Positions 2,359 to 26,660 of a stretch of DNA of 37,075 nt are shown piece by piece. This DNA is from Spirochaetaceae bacterium (lineage in GTDB: Bacteria; Spirochaetota; Spirochaetia; DSM-2461). The notes beneath the pieces were generated by a model. That model was given only the letters and a program-made list of their open reading frames with translations. It was not told the origin of the DNA and ran no database searches. The stretch lies in NCBI GenBank assembly GCA_016342385.1, contig JAEINM010000002.1, positions 1 to 37,075 of the forward strand, given 5' to 3'. Both the position numbers and the translations under genes were made by a program. Numbering within the stretch: position 1 is the first letter of the stretch; the number at the start of each line of letters is the position of its first letter.

Positions 2359-3408
2359 TTAAGCCTCTTTATTTATAACTGCGACCTGTTGAGAATCGAC
2401 TATGAGGTGAAGTCCTTCGTGAACGATGATTTCTCCTCCGTTCAATCCGGAAAAAACAACGCATTCAGTTACATCCGATGGTCCCAATTCCACGTAGCGT
2501 TTGATAACTGTCTCACCTTCAAGAATCATAACGTAATCCCCGCTGTCTTCTCTTATTATGGAATCTGCCGGCAGTACAATATGATCGTCGTATCTATTTC
2601 GAAGAAGTTTTACTTTAGCAGTCGTCCCTGATAGAATCTTACTATCTTCATTATTGACAAGTATTGTTGCAGAAAATGTCAGATTTCTATCGGAACTTTT
2701 TCTGGAAAAGCGAACTAACTCACCCTCCCAAATTCGGCCTGGAAATAGATCCAGGGTAATCTGTGCGGGACTCCCCTCTTGAATACCTTCCATATCGGCT
2801 TCGGGTATTCCGATTTTAATTTCAATTTGTGAGAGATCTTCAATTAAAAAGGATTCATGCCCCGGACTGATCTCATCATCAGTATCAATATTTCTCGATA
2901 CAACGACTCCTGATATGGGAGCTATACAAAATGCACCGTTATAGGCTTTTTCCGCATCGAGCAGCTGTGCTTTGCTATTGAGCCACTGGAGATGAGCCTG
3001 ATCCACATTTATCTGGGAACTAGTACCGCTTTGGAGGAACCGTTTTAAAGCATTGTAATTGTCATGGCTGATTTTCTCATTTAAGATTGCCGAATCAAGT
3101 GTTAGCTGTGCTTTCTCTGATGAAATCAAAGACAAAGATTCGCCTTCAGAGACCAATGATCCCTCAGCGACATTAACCGACTCTACAGTTCCGCCAGTCA
3201 TACTGATTATGGAGGCTCGCTTGACTCCCTGAACACGGCCATAATACTCTCCGTATTCATAATAATCAGCTCTTTCCACTTTCAAAGTTGAAACTGGTGT
3301 TAAAGATATTTCTTTTTCAGATACAGTTGATTTTTCATTATTTCTGTTACAGCTGATAAAAAGTAATGTACATACTGCACATAGTATCCCGACACTTTTC
3401 TTCATCAT
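2359..3408 (-). CDS. RND efflux periplasmic adaptor (HlyD/MFP family), lipoprotein
   Basis: ORF 2359..3501. Likely start is the internal MMKKSVGILCAVCTLLFISCNRN (ATG ~3408, RBS GAGGAT, lipobox FISC). HlyD-like biotinyl/lipoyl hairpin region; immediately upstream of the RND permease. Confidence 0.88.
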   Translation of the reverse strand: MMKKSVGILCAVCTLLFISCNRNNEKSTVSEKEISLTPVSTLKVERADYYEYGEYYGRVQGVKRASIISMTGGTVESVNVAEGSLVSEGESLSLISSEKAQLTLDSAILNEKISHDNYNALKRFLQSGTSSQINVDQAHLQWLNSKAQLLDAEKAYNGAFCIAPISGVVVSRNIDTDDEISPGHESFLIEDLSQIEIKIGIPEADMEGIQEGSPAQITLDLFPGRIWEGELVRFSRKSSDRNLTFSATILVNNEDSKILSGTTAKVKLLRNRYDDHIVLPADSIIREDSGDYVMILEGETVIKRYVELGPSDVTECVVFSGLNGGEIIVHEGLHLIVDSQQVAVINKEA

Positions 3409-3682
3409 TATTTTATCCTCTACAAAAGAACACATGGTTCCAAGATTACTATTAGAAAACAAGATAGTAAAAAAAATGCCACTTGATAAAGTGAAAATCA
3501 TGGTTTTTTTAAATTGTAAACTGAAATTTAATATTTTCTAAAGAATATAAATGGAATTGTTAAATAAGACGACTCCTTTTTTTGTATATTTAAATTTTAA
3601 AATTATGTGTTCCATATAAAAATCATAAAGTATAATTGATTCCTATATTTGTAATAGAATTAACTATATGCCGGGAGTTGTT

Positions 3683-4465
3683 GTGAATAAAATCTTAATC
3701 TGTTGTATTGGATGCCTAATACTCGTCTTTGTTTTCAGTTGTGATACTTCTCTATCGGATGGCACAGATATACTGAGTTTTACCATTACCGGGATTGTGG
3801 GAAAGGCGGAAATAGATCCCATTAACAAGACAATTGACTTTCGTATACGGCCGATTAACCTTGTTGGTCTAAATCCTGTTATTACTGTAACAGAAGGAGC
3901 CATTTTTACTCTTGAGGGAGATCTTGTCGATGGTAAAGCAGTAGATTTAATAGTTACTGCAGAGAATGGGAAAGAAGCAAAATGGAGTATTACAGCAAAT
4001 ATGAATCGTGGCATCTACTATGAAATAGATGGTATACCCCACTCATTTTCTTATGGTTTTACCGATAATACCAACATAATAACAGCTGAAGAATGGGGAA
4101 ATGGTGAGCCTTGTATAACTTCAGACTTACGTATTTTTGCAGCTACCCATATATTCCATAAAAATTTAGTTTCCTATAATCCCGATGAATTTGTCATAAT
4201 CACCTTAAGCTCATTTAGCGCTGGAAATTATGATGAGAGCGACGTCGGTTTTTTATATTCCTTTGATGAAGACCAGAATAATTCTGCTGATTCGGGAATC
4301 ATAACAGTATCAATGAGTCTTGTTCTAGAAAATGAAAGCACTTTAGGTGATGATCTCTATGGAAGTTTTAATCTAATCGGAGAAGATCCTTTCCTTACTG
4401 TACCTATTCCTATAAATGTCACAAATGGTTATTTTAAAGTGCTTTCTATAGTTCATGCATTTTAA
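3683..4465 (+). CDS. Putative lipoprotein with N-terminal DUF5018/PKD-like beta-sandwich repeat
   Basis: The track starts at ATG 3668; GTG 3683 preceded by GGGAG gives a cleaner signal peptide (NKILICCIGCLILVFVFSC|D). The segment ILSFTITGIVGKAEIDPINKTIDFRIRP...LNPVITVTEGAIF...WSITAN resembles DUF5018-type repeats. Confidence 0.7.
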   Translation: MNKILICCIGCLILVFVFSCDTSLSDGTDILSFTITGIVGKAEIDPINKTIDFRIRPINLVGLNPVITVTEGAIFTLEGDLVDGKAVDLIVTAENGKEAKWSITANMNRGIYYEIDGIPHSFSYGFTDNTNIITAEEWGNGEPCITSDLRIFAATHIFHKNLVSYNPDEFVIITLSSFSAGNYDESDVGFLYSFDEDQNNSADSGIITVSMSLVLENESTLGDDLYGSFNLIGEDPFLTVPIPINVTNGYFKVLSIVHAF

Positions 4466-4609
4466 AATATAGGATGTATGATTTATCTCTATAAATTATA
4501 ATGAGGAAAAAGTTCCAATTTTTTTAATCCGATATTCTTTTCCGAAATTTTCTCACTATTGAAAATCCACCTATTTCTCAGATATTATTGAGAGGGAAAT
4601 TTATAAAAA

Positions 4610-4643
4610 AAGCCCTCCCGTTTTTCTGAAAACGGGAGGGCTT
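4610..4643 (-). terminator. Rho-independent terminator downstream of ppdK
   Basis: AGCCCTCCCGTTTTTCTGAAAACGGGAGGGCT hairpin followed on the minus strand by a T-tract (plus-strand AAAAAAA at ~4605-4611). Confidence 0.9.
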
Positions 4644-4664
4644 TGGTAATATTAAATATAAAAA

Positions 4665-7331
4665 TTATCTGTTGTTAATAACAGCATGTGCTGCAGCAAG
4701 TCTTGCTATGGGAACTCTGTAGGGAGAACAGGACACAACGTTAAGTCCCGCTCTATAGCAGAAGTCGATAGAAGACGGTTCACCACCGTGCTCTCCGCAG
4801 ATACTTGTTTTAAGGTCGGCTTTAGTCTGACGACCTTTAGCAACACCCATGTTAACAAGCTGCCCGACACCATCCTGGTCGAGAACCTGGAAGGGATCAT
4901 CTTTTAGAACTTTCTTGTTGATGTATTCCGGAACGAATCCACCGACATCATCACGAGAGTAACCAAAAGTCATCTGAGTAAGGTCATTTGTACCGAATGA
5001 GAAGAAGTCAGCGTATTTAGCCACTTCATCAGCCGTTAAAGCTGCTCTAGGAATCTCAATCATTGTACCGATCATATACTCAACTTTCGAACCGGTATTT
5101 TTTAGAACTTTATCAATGACAGCCTGAGCATTTTCTCTCAGAACTTTTAGCTCACTGACAATACCCACAAGAGGAATCATGATTTCAGGAAAGACTTTAA
5201 TACCTTTCTTAGTCATTGTAGCTGCTGCAGTCATAATCGCTTCTACCTGCATATCATAGATTTCAGGATAAGTGATTCCGAGACGACAACCTCTGTGACC
5301 AAGCATAGGATTCTGCTCTGAAAGACCTTCCAGTCTTATTTTAAGAGCTTTAGCATCCATACCCATTTTCTTAGCAAGAGAATTGATTTCATCATCTGTG
5401 TGTGGAACAAATTCGTGTAGAGGAGGATCGAGAAGACGTACAGTAACGGGAAGTCCGTCCATAGCTTCGAAGATTCCTTCAAAGTCTGTAATCTGGAGTT
5501 TCAGGATTGCTTTAAGAGCTTCTTTTCTCTCTTCAACAGTGTCGGAAACAATCATAACGCGGAATGCTTCAAGTTTTTCACCTTCGAAGAACATATGCTC
5601 AGTTCGACATAGACCAATACCTTCAGCTCCGAATTCTCTGGCTTTCCGTGCGTCTTCAGGAAGATCTGCATTGGTTCTTACACCGAAACCATCTTTTATT
5701 CCCTTTCTTCTTGCACCGAGTCGAACTTCATCAGCCCAGCCTAGGAATGTATTGAGGTTACCTGACAGTTCAGGAACTATCAGTTTTGCAGTACCCGAGT
5801 AAACATTACCATCAGTACCATTTATTGTGAGAGAATCACCTTCTTTATATATTTTTCCATCTATAGTGGCTGTTTTATCAGAGACTGAAATAACAACGGC
5901 TTTACATCCGGCAACACAGGGGCGCCCCATTCCTCTGGCAACAACAGCTGCGTGGGAAGTCATACCGCCAGTGGCTGTCAGGATACCTTCAGCAGCATTC
6001 ATTCCACCGATATCTTCAGGAGAAGTTTCTTTTCTTACAAGAATAACTTTTTCACCTTTAGCTTTTGCAATTTCTGCCGCTTCTGCAGTAAATACGATTG
6101 TACCTGCAGCAGCACCTGGAGATGCGTTGAGACCTTTTGCAATAGATACAAGATCTTTCTCATAAGCAGGGTCAATCATAGGGTGAAGGAGCTGATCCAA
6201 CTGGTCAGGAGAGACCATGATCAGGGCTTCTTCTTTAGTCCGCATTCCTTCATTTACCAGGTCAACTGCTATGTTTACAGCAGCATTTCCGGTTCTTTTT
6301 CCATTCCTTGTCTGGAGGAGATACAATTTCCCTTCCTGAATAGTAAACTCAAGGTCCTGCATATCTTTGTAGTGGCCTTCCAGTTTATCTTTAATATCTA
6401 CAAGTTCTTTGTATATAGCGGGATTCTGATCTTCAAGAGTAGACAGTTTCAGAGGAGTTCTTATTCCGGCAACAACATCTTCACCCTGGGCATTCATGAG
6501 ATATTCACCATAAAAATAGTTTTCACCAGTAGAAGGGTCTCTTGAAAAACAAACACCAGTACCGGAAGTGTCTCCATAGTTACCGTACACCATAGACTGA
6601 ACGTTTACGGCAGTACCAATCAGATCGGCAATTTTATTAATTTCTCTATATTTAATAGCTCTTTCGTTATTCCAGGAACCGAATACCGCATCGATTGCGG
6701 CCCAGAGCTGCTCTTTCGGATTTTGAGGGAAATCTTTTCCTGTGGTTTTTTTGTAAACAGCAAGATATCGCTGAACAACTTCTTTCAGGTCATCTGCATC
6801 AAGGTCAGTATCGAACTCAACACCTTTTTCTTTTTTAACAGATTCGAGAGCAACTTCAAAATCATGATGTTCACAACCGCTTACAACATCGCCATACATC
6901 TGAATAAATCGTCTGTATGAATCCCAGGCAAAACGAGGGTTACCTGTGTTTTTTGCGATACCCTCAACAGCTTCTGTTGTTAAACCAAGGTTCAGGACTG
7001 TGTCCATCATTCCCGGCATGGAAACCGCGGCACCTGATCTGATAGAAACGAGTAAGGGATCATTGGGATCACCAAGGGTTTTACCCATCTCTTTTTCAAG
7101 TTTAGCAAGATTTTCATCAACCTGTTTTTTAATATCATCTGTATAAGTACGGTTGTTATCGTAATAACTTTTACAAACTTCAGTTGCAAGAGTAAATCCG
7201 GGAGGGACAGGTACACCAAGATTTGTCATCTCACAAAGATTAGCACCTTTTCCACCAAGAAGGTTTTTCATAGATGCATCACCTTCGGTAGCATTTTTAC
7301 CGAAATAATAGACCAGTTTCTTATCACTCAT
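4665..7331 (-). CDS. ppdK: Pyruvate, phosphate dikinase
   Basis: 888 aa. N-terminal KNLLGGKGANLCEMTNLGVPVPPGFT; catalytic-His segment GGMTSHAAVVARGMGRPCVAG; C-terminal TIM-barrel motifs FGTNDLTQMTFGYSRDD and CGEHGG. Confidence 0.97.
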   Translation of the reverse strand: MSDKKLVYYFGKNATEGDASMKNLLGGKGANLCEMTNLGVPVPPGFTLATEVCKSYYDNNRTYTDDIKKQVDENLAKLEKEMGKTLGDPNDPLLVSIRSGAAVSMPGMMDTVLNLGLTTEAVEGIAKNTGNPRFAWDSYRRFIQMYGDVVSGCEHHDFEVALESVKKEKGVEFDTDLDADDLKEVVQRYLAVYKKTTGKDFPQNPKEQLWAAIDAVFGSWNNERAIKYREINKIADLIGTAVNVQSMVYGNYGDTSGTGVCFSRDPSTGENYFYGEYLMNAQGEDVVAGIRTPLKLSTLEDQNPAIYKELVDIKDKLEGHYKDMQDLEFTIQEGKLYLLQTRNGKRTGNAAVNIAVDLVNEGMRTKEEALIMVSPDQLDQLLHPMIDPAYEKDLVSIAKGLNASPGAAAGTIVFTAEAAEIAKAKGEKVILVRKETSPEDIGGMNAAEGILTATGGMTSHAAVVARGMGRPCVAGCKAVVISVSDKTATIDGKIYKEGDSLTINGTDGNVYSGTAKLIVPELSGNLNTFLGWADEVRLGARRKGIKDGFGVRTNADLPEDARKAREFGAEGIGLCRTEHMFFEGEKLEAFRVMIVSDTVEERKEALKAILKLQITDFEGIFEAMDGLPVTVRLLDPPLHEFVPHTDDEINSLAKKMGMDAKALKIRLEGLSEQNPMLGHRGCRLGITYPEIYDMQVEAIMTAAATMTKKGIKVFPEIMIPLVGIVSELKVLRENAQAVIDKVLKNTGSKVEYMIGTMIEIPRAALTADEVAKYADFFSFGTNDLTQMTFGYSRDDVGGFVPEYINKKVLKDDPFQVLDQDGVGQLVNMGVAKGRQTKADLKTSICGEHGGEPSSIDFCYRAGLNVVSCSPYRVPIARLAAAHAVINNR

Positions 7332-23269: not shown

Positions 23270-24613
23270 ATGAGAAATAAACTTTTAAAAAATCTACAGG
23301 GATCACGATACGTCTTATCTCTTGCTTTACCGGTTATGGGGACTCAAATTGCCAATACAATGGTTCAGCTTGTAGATACCATGTTTATCGGAAGAATTGA
23401 TGCTCTATCTTTAGGTGCTGTTGCATTAACAGGTACTCTTATCTGGAATTTCCAGATGATCTCTGAAGGTTTCTCAACAGGTTTAACCGCAACAATATCA
23501 AGAAGAATAGGTGAAAAAAAACCGGAAAAGGCATCAGAATTTCTCCGGACGGGATTATTATCTATTTTGATATTTTCGCTGATATTATTACCTCTTGTTT
23601 ATTTCGGATCGGAAAAATTATTATCATTAATTCGCGTTCCCGAAGATTTATTGACATTAGGCAATAGTTATTTCAAGACTTTTATGATATTTCTCCCATC
23701 TATATTTGGTTTGACTGCCATTCAGGCCGCTTTTAATGCCAGTGGTGAGACAAAGACAACGATGAAAGTCAGTATTATGATGAATATAATCAATATTATA
23801 ATGGACTGGGCGCTTATTTTCGGTCATTTAGGACTACCTGCATTGGGTATAGCCGGCGCGGCCTATGCTTCGGGAATCAGCTTTACATTCGGATTTATCT
23901 CATTGCTTTTTATCAGTTTTTTCAGAGAATGGAGTCCCCTTAAAGGATCGATAATCTATTCGTGGAAACATTTAAAGCTAATTGTTAAAATTGGAATACC
24001 GGCGCTTATCAGTAATATGGCTATGGCTATAAGTCAGATGTTAGTTATGGTGTTGGCAGTAACACCTCTTGGAAGCCTAAGTCTTGGAGCTTTCAATATA
24101 GTTATGAAACTGGCATCAGTCTCATTTATGCCGGGATTTGGTTTTGCTATTGCCGCATCGACCAGCACGGGACAATCTCTCGGTGAAGGAAATCCACTTA
24201 AAGCAAGAAAAATGACCATGATTGCGGCATTTTACTGCGTTTTAGTTATGGCTATTATCAGTATTACCTATTTTATAATTCCAGACCTGATGATTTCAAT
24301 GTTCACTACAGATCAAATTATCCTCTCAATGGCAAGAGATGCCTTGAGAATCTATGCTATATTTGCCGTTTTTCTTGCTCCGGCAATGGTTTTCGGTGGA
24401 ACCATTAGAGGGGCAGGTGATACAACTTTTGCAATGGTTGTTATGTTAATCAGCCGATTTATTCTCCGTTTGCCTGCCGCATGGATATTGGGTATTTATT
24501 TTGATGGTGGTCTTACAGGAGTCTGGTTAGCAATGTGCCTGGATTTTCTTGTGAGAGGAGCTATAATGTGGCTTCGTTTTAAGGGCGGAAAATGGGAAAA
24601 GGCCGTAGCCTGA
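23270..24613 (+). CDS. MATE family efflux transporter
   Basis: 447 aa, about 12 TM: LALPVMGTQIANTMVQLVDTMFIGRIDALSLGAVALTG...GAGDTTFAMVVMLISRFILRLPAAWILG. Confidence 0.92.
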   Translation: MRNKLLKNLQGSRYVLSLALPVMGTQIANTMVQLVDTMFIGRIDALSLGAVALTGTLIWNFQMISEGFSTGLTATISRRIGEKKPEKASEFLRTGLLSILIFSLILLPLVYFGSEKLLSLIRVPEDLLTLGNSYFKTFMIFLPSIFGLTAIQAAFNASGETKTTMKVSIMMNIINIIMDWALIFGHLGLPALGIAGAAYASGISFTFGFISLLFISFFREWSPLKGSIIYSWKHLKLIVKIGIPALISNMAMAISQMLVMVLAVTPLGSLSLGAFNIVMKLASVSFMPGFGFAIAASTSTGQSLGEGNPLKARKMTMIAAFYCVLVMAIISITYFIIPDLMISMFTTDQIILSMARDALRIYAIFAVFLAPAMVFGGTIRGAGDTTFAMVVMLISRFILRLPAAWILGIYFDGGLTGVWLAMCLDFLVRGAIMWLRFKGGKWEKAVA

Positions 24614-24618
24614 TCCCA

Positions 24619-24780
24619 TTAGTCCTGCCACATGACTTTAATTTTTTCCTGGCCGATCTTGTCGGTAATAATGTCGGCAAGCCGCAATAATTCCGGTTTA
24701 CAGCAATCAACAGTTTTACCATCATTTAATCTCTTTTTAAGTTCTGCGGCAAATTCAGAAATGCTTATCTCTTTTTCCAT
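24619..24780 (-). CDS. Small protein (53 aa), function unknown; not in the supplied ORF track
   Basis: Minus-strand ATG at 24780, TAA at 24619, AGGGAG RBS 7 nt upstream. Translation: MEKEISISEFAAELKKRLNDGKTVDCCKPELLRLADIITDKIGQEKIKVMWQD. Confidence 0.65.
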   Translation of the reverse strand: MEKEISISEFAAELKKRLNDGKTVDCCKPELLRLADIITDKIGQEKIKVMWQD

Positions 24781-24840
24781 ATATTTCTCCCTATAAATTA
24801 ATTATTCATATATTCTTTTCAAAAGCAAGAAATTATTTAC

Positions 24841-24877
24841 TTCTGTAGTGTACGGTATGCGACCGTACACTACAGAA
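24841..24877. repeat. Perfect 37-nt hairpin/palindrome (16-bp stem, 5-nt loop)
   Basis: TTCTGTAGTGTACGGT-ATGCG-ACCGTACACTACAGAA, with additional flanking GAAATT (24829-24834) / AATTTC (24878-24883). Lies between divergent genes; no T-tract on either strand. Confidence 0.95.
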
Positions 24878-24923
24878 AATTTCATTAGGAACTTAGAGGA
24901 TTATCATATATATTAATGGCTAT

Positions 24924-26660
24924 ATGAAAGCTGAACTGATTAATAAAAAATATAGAAGATATAAAGACGATATAGAAAATATTCTCAATGAGTTACTACC
25001 GGTTGTAAAAGATCTGGACTTACAGGAAATACAAAGTGATATTCAAAAACTCTATGAAAGCCTTGAAAGTCCCTTTATGTTTGTGGTGATCGGGGAAGTA
25101 AAGTCGGGAAAAAGTTCTTTTATAAACTCCCTGACCGGAGAAAATATCTGTGCCGTCGATGCTGATATCTGTACAGATAAAGTTCAGCAGATAGTCTATT
25201 CCAAAGAACCCTTCATCGATCATAAGGAAAAGTTTTTTGACATAAAGGGCATTAATGCCGAGATTTTAAAGGATATTTCTATAGTCGATACGCCAGGTAC
25301 TGATTCTGTCATATCAGACCATGAAAAAATCACCAGAAAATTTGCACCAAACAGCAATCTGATTTTTTTTGTTTTTCCTGCCATCAATCCCCATCACAGT
25401 TCATCATGGGAAATGCTGAATATAATGAAAGATCTCTGGAGCAGGAATATTGTTTTTATCGCTACCCAGGCGGACCGCTGTACAGATAAGGAGATCGAAG
25501 TTAATTGTCAAAAAATACGCCATTATGCTGCAGAACGGGGTATTCCCGATCCTGTTATATTTACCACATCATCCAAACGGGAGATTGAAGGTGAATTGGA
25601 AAATAGTGGATTTCAAGCTGTCAGAGATTTTATCACCGATACGACATCGGGCGGAAAACATATGATTATGAAACTCAATGATAGAGCAAAAATAGCTTCT
25701 ATTATATTTGAAAAACTGGATTCTGTTTTACAGAAGAGAAATGAAATCCTTACTATAGATAAAAGACTTAAGGAAAAGATTACAGATAAATATACAAGCG
25801 GTAAAGAAAACTCCATAAAGGAAATTGAAAAAATATTGAGCCGCATGACTTATGTATTCGAGCGTACTTCGGGAGATTTTCTGCATAAATTAAAAAGAGC
25901 CCTTTCTACAGGTAATATTCTAAAACAGGCTCTACCCATTGTGAGGTTTAAAAACAGCAAATCAAAAATTGATAGGAATTTTCTTGAATCTCTTATAAAA
26001 GATATGAATACAAGCCTTGAGAAGGATCTGTCTATTGAAGCTTCGGACAATGCCGCCTATTTTATCGACGGTATAAAATACCGATTCAGTGAAATTATCA
26101 GGGAAGTTGATAAGGCCAGAGACCACTATACGGAAAAAGAGGGCTTACAGGCTCTTGATCGTTTCAGCAGTAAAAGGGAAGAAATCTTAACTGAATTATT
26201 AAATGGCCTGACAGAAATGTCTGAGGATGCCTCATTAATTCCTGCCCTGGAAAAACACAACCCGGCCATTGGAGATACTGTGCTGAAAGGTGGAGCTATC
26301 GCCGCGGCAGGAGCTCTCCTGGCTATAATTGCACAAGGTGCTGTATTTGATGCTACTGGAGGGATTCTGTCAGCCTTGGGGATTCTGGGAGCCGGGGGAA
26401 TTATTCTGTTTAAGCGCAATCGACTGATAAAAGAATTTAAAAAAAATATCCAGGTATCAAATGATAAATTCCACAAAGAGCTTAAAACTCGTTTTGAGCG
26501 AAGGCTCGGGCTGATATTCGGAGACATTAAGAGACTATTTGAAAATCTCGACAATCACATTTCAATTGAATCTGGAAAGCTGGAAATCGCTGAAAGTACG
26601 TTTATTGAACAGCAGAAGATGTTGTTCAAAATTACAGAAGAGATAAAAAAAATACACTGA
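24924..26660 (+). CDS. Bacterial dynamin-like GTPase
   Basis: G1 GEVKSGKSSF, G3 VDTPGTDS, G4-like TQAD; long helical stalk; C-terminal hydrophobic hairpin GGAIAAAGALLAIIAQGAVFDATGGILSALGILGAGGIILFKRNR. Confidence 0.85.
   Translation: MKAELINKKYRRYKDDIENILNELLPVVKDLDLQEIQSDIQKLYESLESPFMFVVIGEVKSGKSSFINSLTGENICAVDADICTDKVQQIVYSKEPFIDHKEKFFDIKGINAEILKDISIVDTPGTDSVISDHEKITRKFAPNSNLIFFVFPAINPHHSSSWEMLNIMKDLWSRNIVFIATQADRCTDKEIEVNCQKIRHYAAERGIPDPVIFTTSSKREIEGELENSGFQAVRDFITDTTSGGKHMIMKLNDRAKIASIIFEKLDSVLQKRNEILTIDKRLKEKITDKYTSGKENSIKEIEKILSRMTYVFERTSGDFLHKLKRALSTGNILKQALPIVRFKNSKSKIDRNFLESLIKDMNTSLEKDLSIEASDNAAYFIDGIKYRFSEIIREVDKARDHYTEKEGLQALDRFSSKREEILTELLNGLTEMSEDASLIPALEKHNPAIGDTVLKGGAIAAAGALLAIIAQGAVFDATGGILSALGILGAGGIILFKRNRLIKEFKKNIQVSNDKFHKELKTRFERRLGLIFGDIKRLFENLDNHISIESGKLEIAESTFIEQQKMLFKITEEIKKIH

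Follow-up and report, generated by a model that had tools for sequence, protein, structure and literature searches.

The thioether motif of the PapB-type ranthipeptides, which are made by radical SAM/SPASM enzymes, is CX3D/E. Among the bacterial dynamins, LeoA, LeoB and LeoC have been described together (PMC4159319), and most dynamin genes of bacteria come as pairs in an operon (PMC6104087). The window analyzed here, the whole stretch of 37,075 nucleotides at the start of contig JAEINM010000002.1 of a Spirochaetaceae bacterium, carries a 578-residue dynamin-like GTPase gene that is divergent from a short ORF for a 53-residue protein, and the original prediction was that the two genes and the palindrome between them may form one functional unit. 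We found instead that the small protein belongs to a conserved family tied to an apparently undescribed RiPP-type cassette, and the reading that we consider probable is that it serves this cassette as a dithiol accessory, being unlinked from it in the window's genome, where the dynamin and the hairpin are incidental. The features of the locus and of the cassette are collected in Table 1.

Table 1. Features of the window and of the cassette encoded elsewhere in the same genome
Feature	Sequence	Location	Position	Strand	Basis or remark
MATE family transporter		window	23270-24613	+	Pfam MatE E = 1.3e-55; convergent with small ORF, 5 nt apart
53-aa vicinal-dithiol protein ORF	MEKEISISEFAAELKKRLNDGKTVDCCKPELLRLADIITDKIGQEKIKVMWQD	window	24619-24780	-	homologues, dN/dS, AlphaFold
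Shine-Dalgarno motif of small ORF	GGGAG	window	24787-24791	-	6 nt before ATG; read from sequence
Inverted repeat (perfect arms of 16 bp, loop of 5 nt)		window	24841-24877		species-specific
578-aa dynamin-like GTPase		window	24924-26660	+	Pfam Dynamin_N E = 1.1e-19
Trx-TrxR		contig C86 (L118)	1416-2708	same strand as cassette	
Radical SAM gene		contig C86 (L118)	about 2701-4026	same strand as cassette	
Cassette peptide	MKSLVRNKKAADKKVAQCCAKISTVVAGCHD	contig C86 (L118)	4083-4178	same strand as cassette	
ArsM-like gene		contig C86 (L118)	4210-4848	same strand as cassette	cassette all on one strand

The positions given in the original prediction for the small ORF, the GTPase gene and the hairpin all proved right, the ORF sequence being exact, and its proposal that an ORF below the size cut-off might be a genuine gene is borne out by the good ribosome-binding site, by homologues and by purifying selection. 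Searching 61 relatives gave 17 strong homologues outside the window's own genome, at E ≤ 3e-9, with 43-87% identity and from many families, and scanning a single genome for each species gave 26 loci, which span many spirochaete families and include two Bacteroidetes and two Myxococcales MAGs. Compared with the nearest sister, pS is ∼0.66 and pN is ∼0.08; the dN/dS ratio, which had been suggested as a check, is ∼0.05-0.1 (0.053 against G001). The small ORF is thus a real gene, well outside what chance would give, of a family under purifying selection, and this 53-residue protein family is conserved and previously undescribed. Among the 26 sequences there is no residue change at Ile-5, Leu-14, Arg-17, Thr-23, Asp-25, Cys-26, Cys-27, Lys-28, Glu-30, Leu-31, Val-49 and Trp-51, so that the signature TxDCCKxEL is invariant and the vicinal cysteines, already singled out as unusual, are both retained in all 26. 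A selenocysteine variant of this pair was considered and rejected, since none of the strong homologues contains an in-frame stop.

The neighborhood of the small gene differs between lineages. The arrangement with the MATE gene recurs in the congener G002, where, as in the window, that gene is intact, and in the sister genome G001 the MATE gene is present only as fragments (L041 9158-9355). In genus g4 (L032, L034, L036 and L038) the small gene occupies another constant neighborhood, without the cassette, its neighbors there including a 537-residue protein with a Schlafen/AlbA_2 domain (L032, L034 and L036), a chromate transporter gene (confirmed by profile in L036) and a 347-residue putatively exported protein.

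The AlphaFold2 model of the small protein (pLDDT 89.5) has a β-α-α-β arrangement in which Cys-26 and Cys-27 lie in a loop immediately ahead of the second helix, residues 28-42. The protein is therefore predicted to be a folded domain that exposes its dithiol, unlike a precursor made of leader and core. The PDB, searched by sequence and by fold, returned no relatives, and comparison with Pfam and NCBIfam gave no match to ArsD or VcpD, the best Pfam hit having an E-value of 0.017, below the cut-off.

The neighboring GTPase has a clear Dynamin_N domain (71.5 bits against a cut-off of 27), and its AlphaFold model is too low in confidence to use (pLDDT 41). Its orthologues are confined to the same genus, in G001 (80%) and G002 (62%) (3/61 relatives), and a three-sequence profile run at E ≤ 1e-20 against 393 genomes of the phylum recovered it in its own genome only. 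Elsewhere in the window's genome there is a single Dynamin_N match, on contig C50 and unlinked to the window, which is a shorter GTPase frame of 311 residues (G000:C50:5196-5540). The divergent pair of small gene and dynamin is kept in the window's genome, G001 and G002, and in the fourth congener, G003, both genes are missing, a pattern that would fit the small protein, palindrome and dynamin acting as one co-regulated functional module. However, the radical SAM gene and the peptide of the cassette described below are missing from G003 too, so that the co-loss is equally well explained by the cassette; all other searched carriers of the small gene, dozens of genomes, are without a dynamin of this family; and outside the genus no homologue of the small protein stands beside it. 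By the conditions that the original prediction itself set for its refutation, a module of this kind fails beyond the genus, and overall we hold it to be very improbable; we judge the dynamin to be a genus-restricted, incidental neighbor that is not part of the small protein's system.

The 37-nucleotide palindrome between the two start codons is there as described, with perfect 16-bp arms and a 5-nt loop. Its RNA form folds with an energy of -26.3 kcal/mol (z = -7.8), no such hairpin is expected by chance in the window, and it occurs once in the 4.08-Mb assembly with up to 3 mismatches allowed. When sought between the two genes in G001 and in G002, it was absent from both, although these sister genomes retain the divergent gene pair, so that it can be considered neither part of a module nor a conserved operator. 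Among other candidate identities, an Rfam RNA was rejected, the only matches (mir-5856 and RAGATH-22) being below threshold and taken as chance; and a terminator, as which the plus strand does score, is unlikely because the site lies between the 5′ ends of divergent genes. We regard the hairpin as a species-specific addition that is incidental to the small gene.

The partners that recur beside homologues of the small gene are not dynamins but an ArsM-like methyltransferase, a radical SAM/SPASM protein, a thioredoxin-thioredoxin reductase fusion (Trx-TrxR) and, often, a DUF1847 protein. In nearly every such cassette the gap between the methyltransferase and radical SAM genes holds a short ORF for a Cys-rich peptide of 30-50 residues, typically MKSLIxKK...AQCCAKxSxxxAGCHD. 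Of 62 radical SAM loci, 54 have the peptide beside the enzyme gene under a strict pattern, and two more with a GCHN ending bring this to 56/62; of the six exceptions, four are truncated by contig ends (G042, G118, G436 and G441), one has the peptide displaced by a few kb (G070; L136 10401-10502) and one has a more distant enzyme (G059). The peptide matches no family in Pfam or NCBIfam, and a search of open-licence papers yielded no description of the cassette or of the peptide motif. Before this peptide was found, the small protein itself had been entertained as the main precursor of the cassette, an idea that was then dropped.

In the window's genome the whole cassette is found on contig C86, and the small gene lies unlinked on another contig. 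Just downstream of this cassette (L118, G000:C86, 171-1411) are two ORFs whose products by eye resemble a γ carbonic anhydrase and an MTA/SAH nucleosidase, and the latter, putative enzyme would fit a SAM-consuming pathway. Some cassettes that have no linked small gene adjoin MarR-family regulators or a DUF5714 Cys-rich protein (L122 10638-11045, L123 10114-10575 and L148 9361-10110), neighbors that possibly indicate thiol- or metalloid-responsive regulation of the cassettes.

Presence of the small gene follows that of the cassette. In a sample of 393 genomes of the phylum, the small gene (E ≤ 1e-15) was present in 18 and the radical SAM gene in 38, with an overlap of 17 (Fisher p = 1.9e-18, a value that overstates the strength of the association because the genomes are phylogenetically non-independent, repeated operon linkage being the better evidence). 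The radical SAM gene is likewise found in 16 of the 18 small-gene carriers among the 61 relatives and in 14 of the 17 genomes reached via other loci, among them the two Myxococcales MAGs and one of the two Bacteroidetes MAGs; with these samples, mostly MAGs, pooled and repeats removed (recognized by contigs of identical length), it is present in about 41 of 45 small-gene genomes. The four exceptions (G022, G053, G254 and G447) are drafts in which the radical SAM gene and, by search, the peptide are absent, the first three being 74-85% complete. Physical linkage was seen in 16 loci, in which 24-782 nt separate the small gene from a cassette gene; the small gene is on the same strand in 15 and mostly the last gene, and these linked loci are spread over several distant branches of the radical SAM tree. 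The presence of the small gene requires 13 changes on this tree, at least 5 of them forced, which indicates that the association has outlived repeated gain or loss. A small gene is recognizable in only about half of the genomes that have the radical SAM gene, and the small protein is thus accessory and not essential to the cassette.

Co-occurrence of this kind partly reflects common ancestry and an anaerobic habitat, and it might do so entirely if the small protein served anaerobic spirochaetes in a general way, in thiol redox reactions or metal binding. The small gene does stand alone beside unrelated genes in several genera, and the pairwise distances of the small protein and the radical SAM protein correlate with r = 0.55 only, which none of 2000 permutations equaled but which shared ancestry alone could also produce. 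Against this, operon linkage turns up repeatedly in branches of the radical SAM tree that lie far apart, the gene is patchily distributed (5 to 13 changes) and yet nearly always accompanied by the cassette, and the association extends to the Myxococcales; we therefore consider such a general function unlikely.

The partner enzymes have kept the residues on which their chemistry would depend. In the ArsM-like methyltransferase Cys-21, Cys-109 and Cys-159, which, as in CmArsM, would be the As(III)-binding cysteines, are invariant in 29/29 sequences and align with cysteines of the solved arsenic methyltransferases (4kw7/4fr0). The radical SAM protein has an invariant CxxxCxxC motif and invariant SPASM cysteines in 29/29 homologues, and both redox CxxC motifs of the Trx-TrxR are invariant. 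Against curated profiles the radical SAM enzyme scores 155 bits for CefB (NF038107), 124 for TIGR04463 and 118.5 for PapB (NF047865), far below the respective cut-offs of 600, 525 and 340, and overall the scores range over 130-157 bits against the 600 of CefB. Since all known maturase families fall below their curated cut-offs, we class the cassette as one that works like the radical SAM RiPP systems, without assigning it to any named family.

An alternative is that the radical SAM/SPASM enzyme acts on the 53-residue protein as well, as a second substrate, through the CX3E motif that Cys-26 and Glu-30 form and that resembles the PapB-type thioether motif. In favor of this, both residues are invariant, the enzyme matches the PapB profile (E about 1e-33 over its length, though under the curated cut-off), and in G132, G160, G165, G175 and G187 the small gene comes immediately after that of the radical SAM enzyme. 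Unlike a leader and core, however, the small protein is conserved over its full length and has a compact predicted fold, nearly every complete cassette offers a better precursor in the AQCC...GCHD peptide, and many cassettes have no small gene at all, leaving this alternative rather unlikely.

For the small protein as a dithiol accessory of the cassette, what the data support directly is that the gene is real and conserved, that it co-occurs with the cassette and is linked to it in operons, and that the partner enzymes retain their catalytic and ligand cysteines. A mechanism can be pictured in which the radical SAM/SPASM enzyme would modify the Cys peptide, the Trx-TrxR would hold the CC pairs in the reduced state and the ArsM-like enzyme would methylate either a soft element held by the peptide (similar to As(III)) or a thiol group. 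The 53-residue protein may then be a dithiol carrier or exchange partner that moves cargo or electrons between the cassette components, the candidates being a metalloid, sulfur or electrons. A bolder version has the product as a ribosomal organoarsenical peptide or cofactor, in which the 53-residue protein would pass As(III) on to the peptide's CC...C thiols, the ArsM-type enzyme would methylate it there, the radical SAM enzyme would fix the arsenic or the thiols covalently and the Trx-TrxR would regenerate the dithiols. To our knowledge no such kind of peptide or cofactor is known. No ars resistance genes were noticed beside the cassettes that were read, so that the case for arsenic comes from the ArsM homology, and we hold this version to be decidedly unlikely.

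What appears to be new is a conserved small-protein family tied to a RiPP-type cassette in which ArsM and radical SAM chemistry and a thioredoxin system of its own come together on a Cys peptide that is highly conserved. The occurrence of the cassette across many anaerobic spirochaete lineages and in other phyla suggests a conserved cofactor or metalloid function and not a variable antibiotic. It is also a lesson in how a wrong function can be assigned from a single genome when a gene has been left next to an unrelated neighbor.

Compared with known systems, the window GTPase resembles those of Eleos (LeoA/LeoBC) weakly, at 50 bits to LeoBC and 39 bits to LeoA with the PADLOC profiles, but it has no adjoining second dynamin gene; its neighbors are the small ORF and MATE and GH42 genes, and there is no side-by-side LeoA and LeoBC pair. 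The small protein shares with the ArsD-type metallochaperones, including VcpD (NF047871), a vicinal Cys pair with a presumed role in handling a soft ligand, a likeness by analogy only, but differs from them in having no significant profile match and a predicted β-α-α-β fold that has no counterpart in the PDB. The best solved relatives of the cassette methyltransferase are arsenic methyltransferases with the aligned cysteines kept, whereas the cassette enzyme has about 212 residues compared with 320-390 in the solved ArsM chains, scores 196 bits against the PRK11873 cut-off of 263 and has the genes for a peptide and a radical SAM maturase beside its own. With the radical SAM/SPASM RiPP systems of the CefB, TIGR04463 and PapB types the cassette has in common a CxxxCxxC and SPASM maturase with the gene for a short Cys peptide immediately upstream; it differs from them in that its peptide matches no NCBIfam or Pfam family and in having an ArsM-type methyltransferase and a Trx-TrxR as constant partners.
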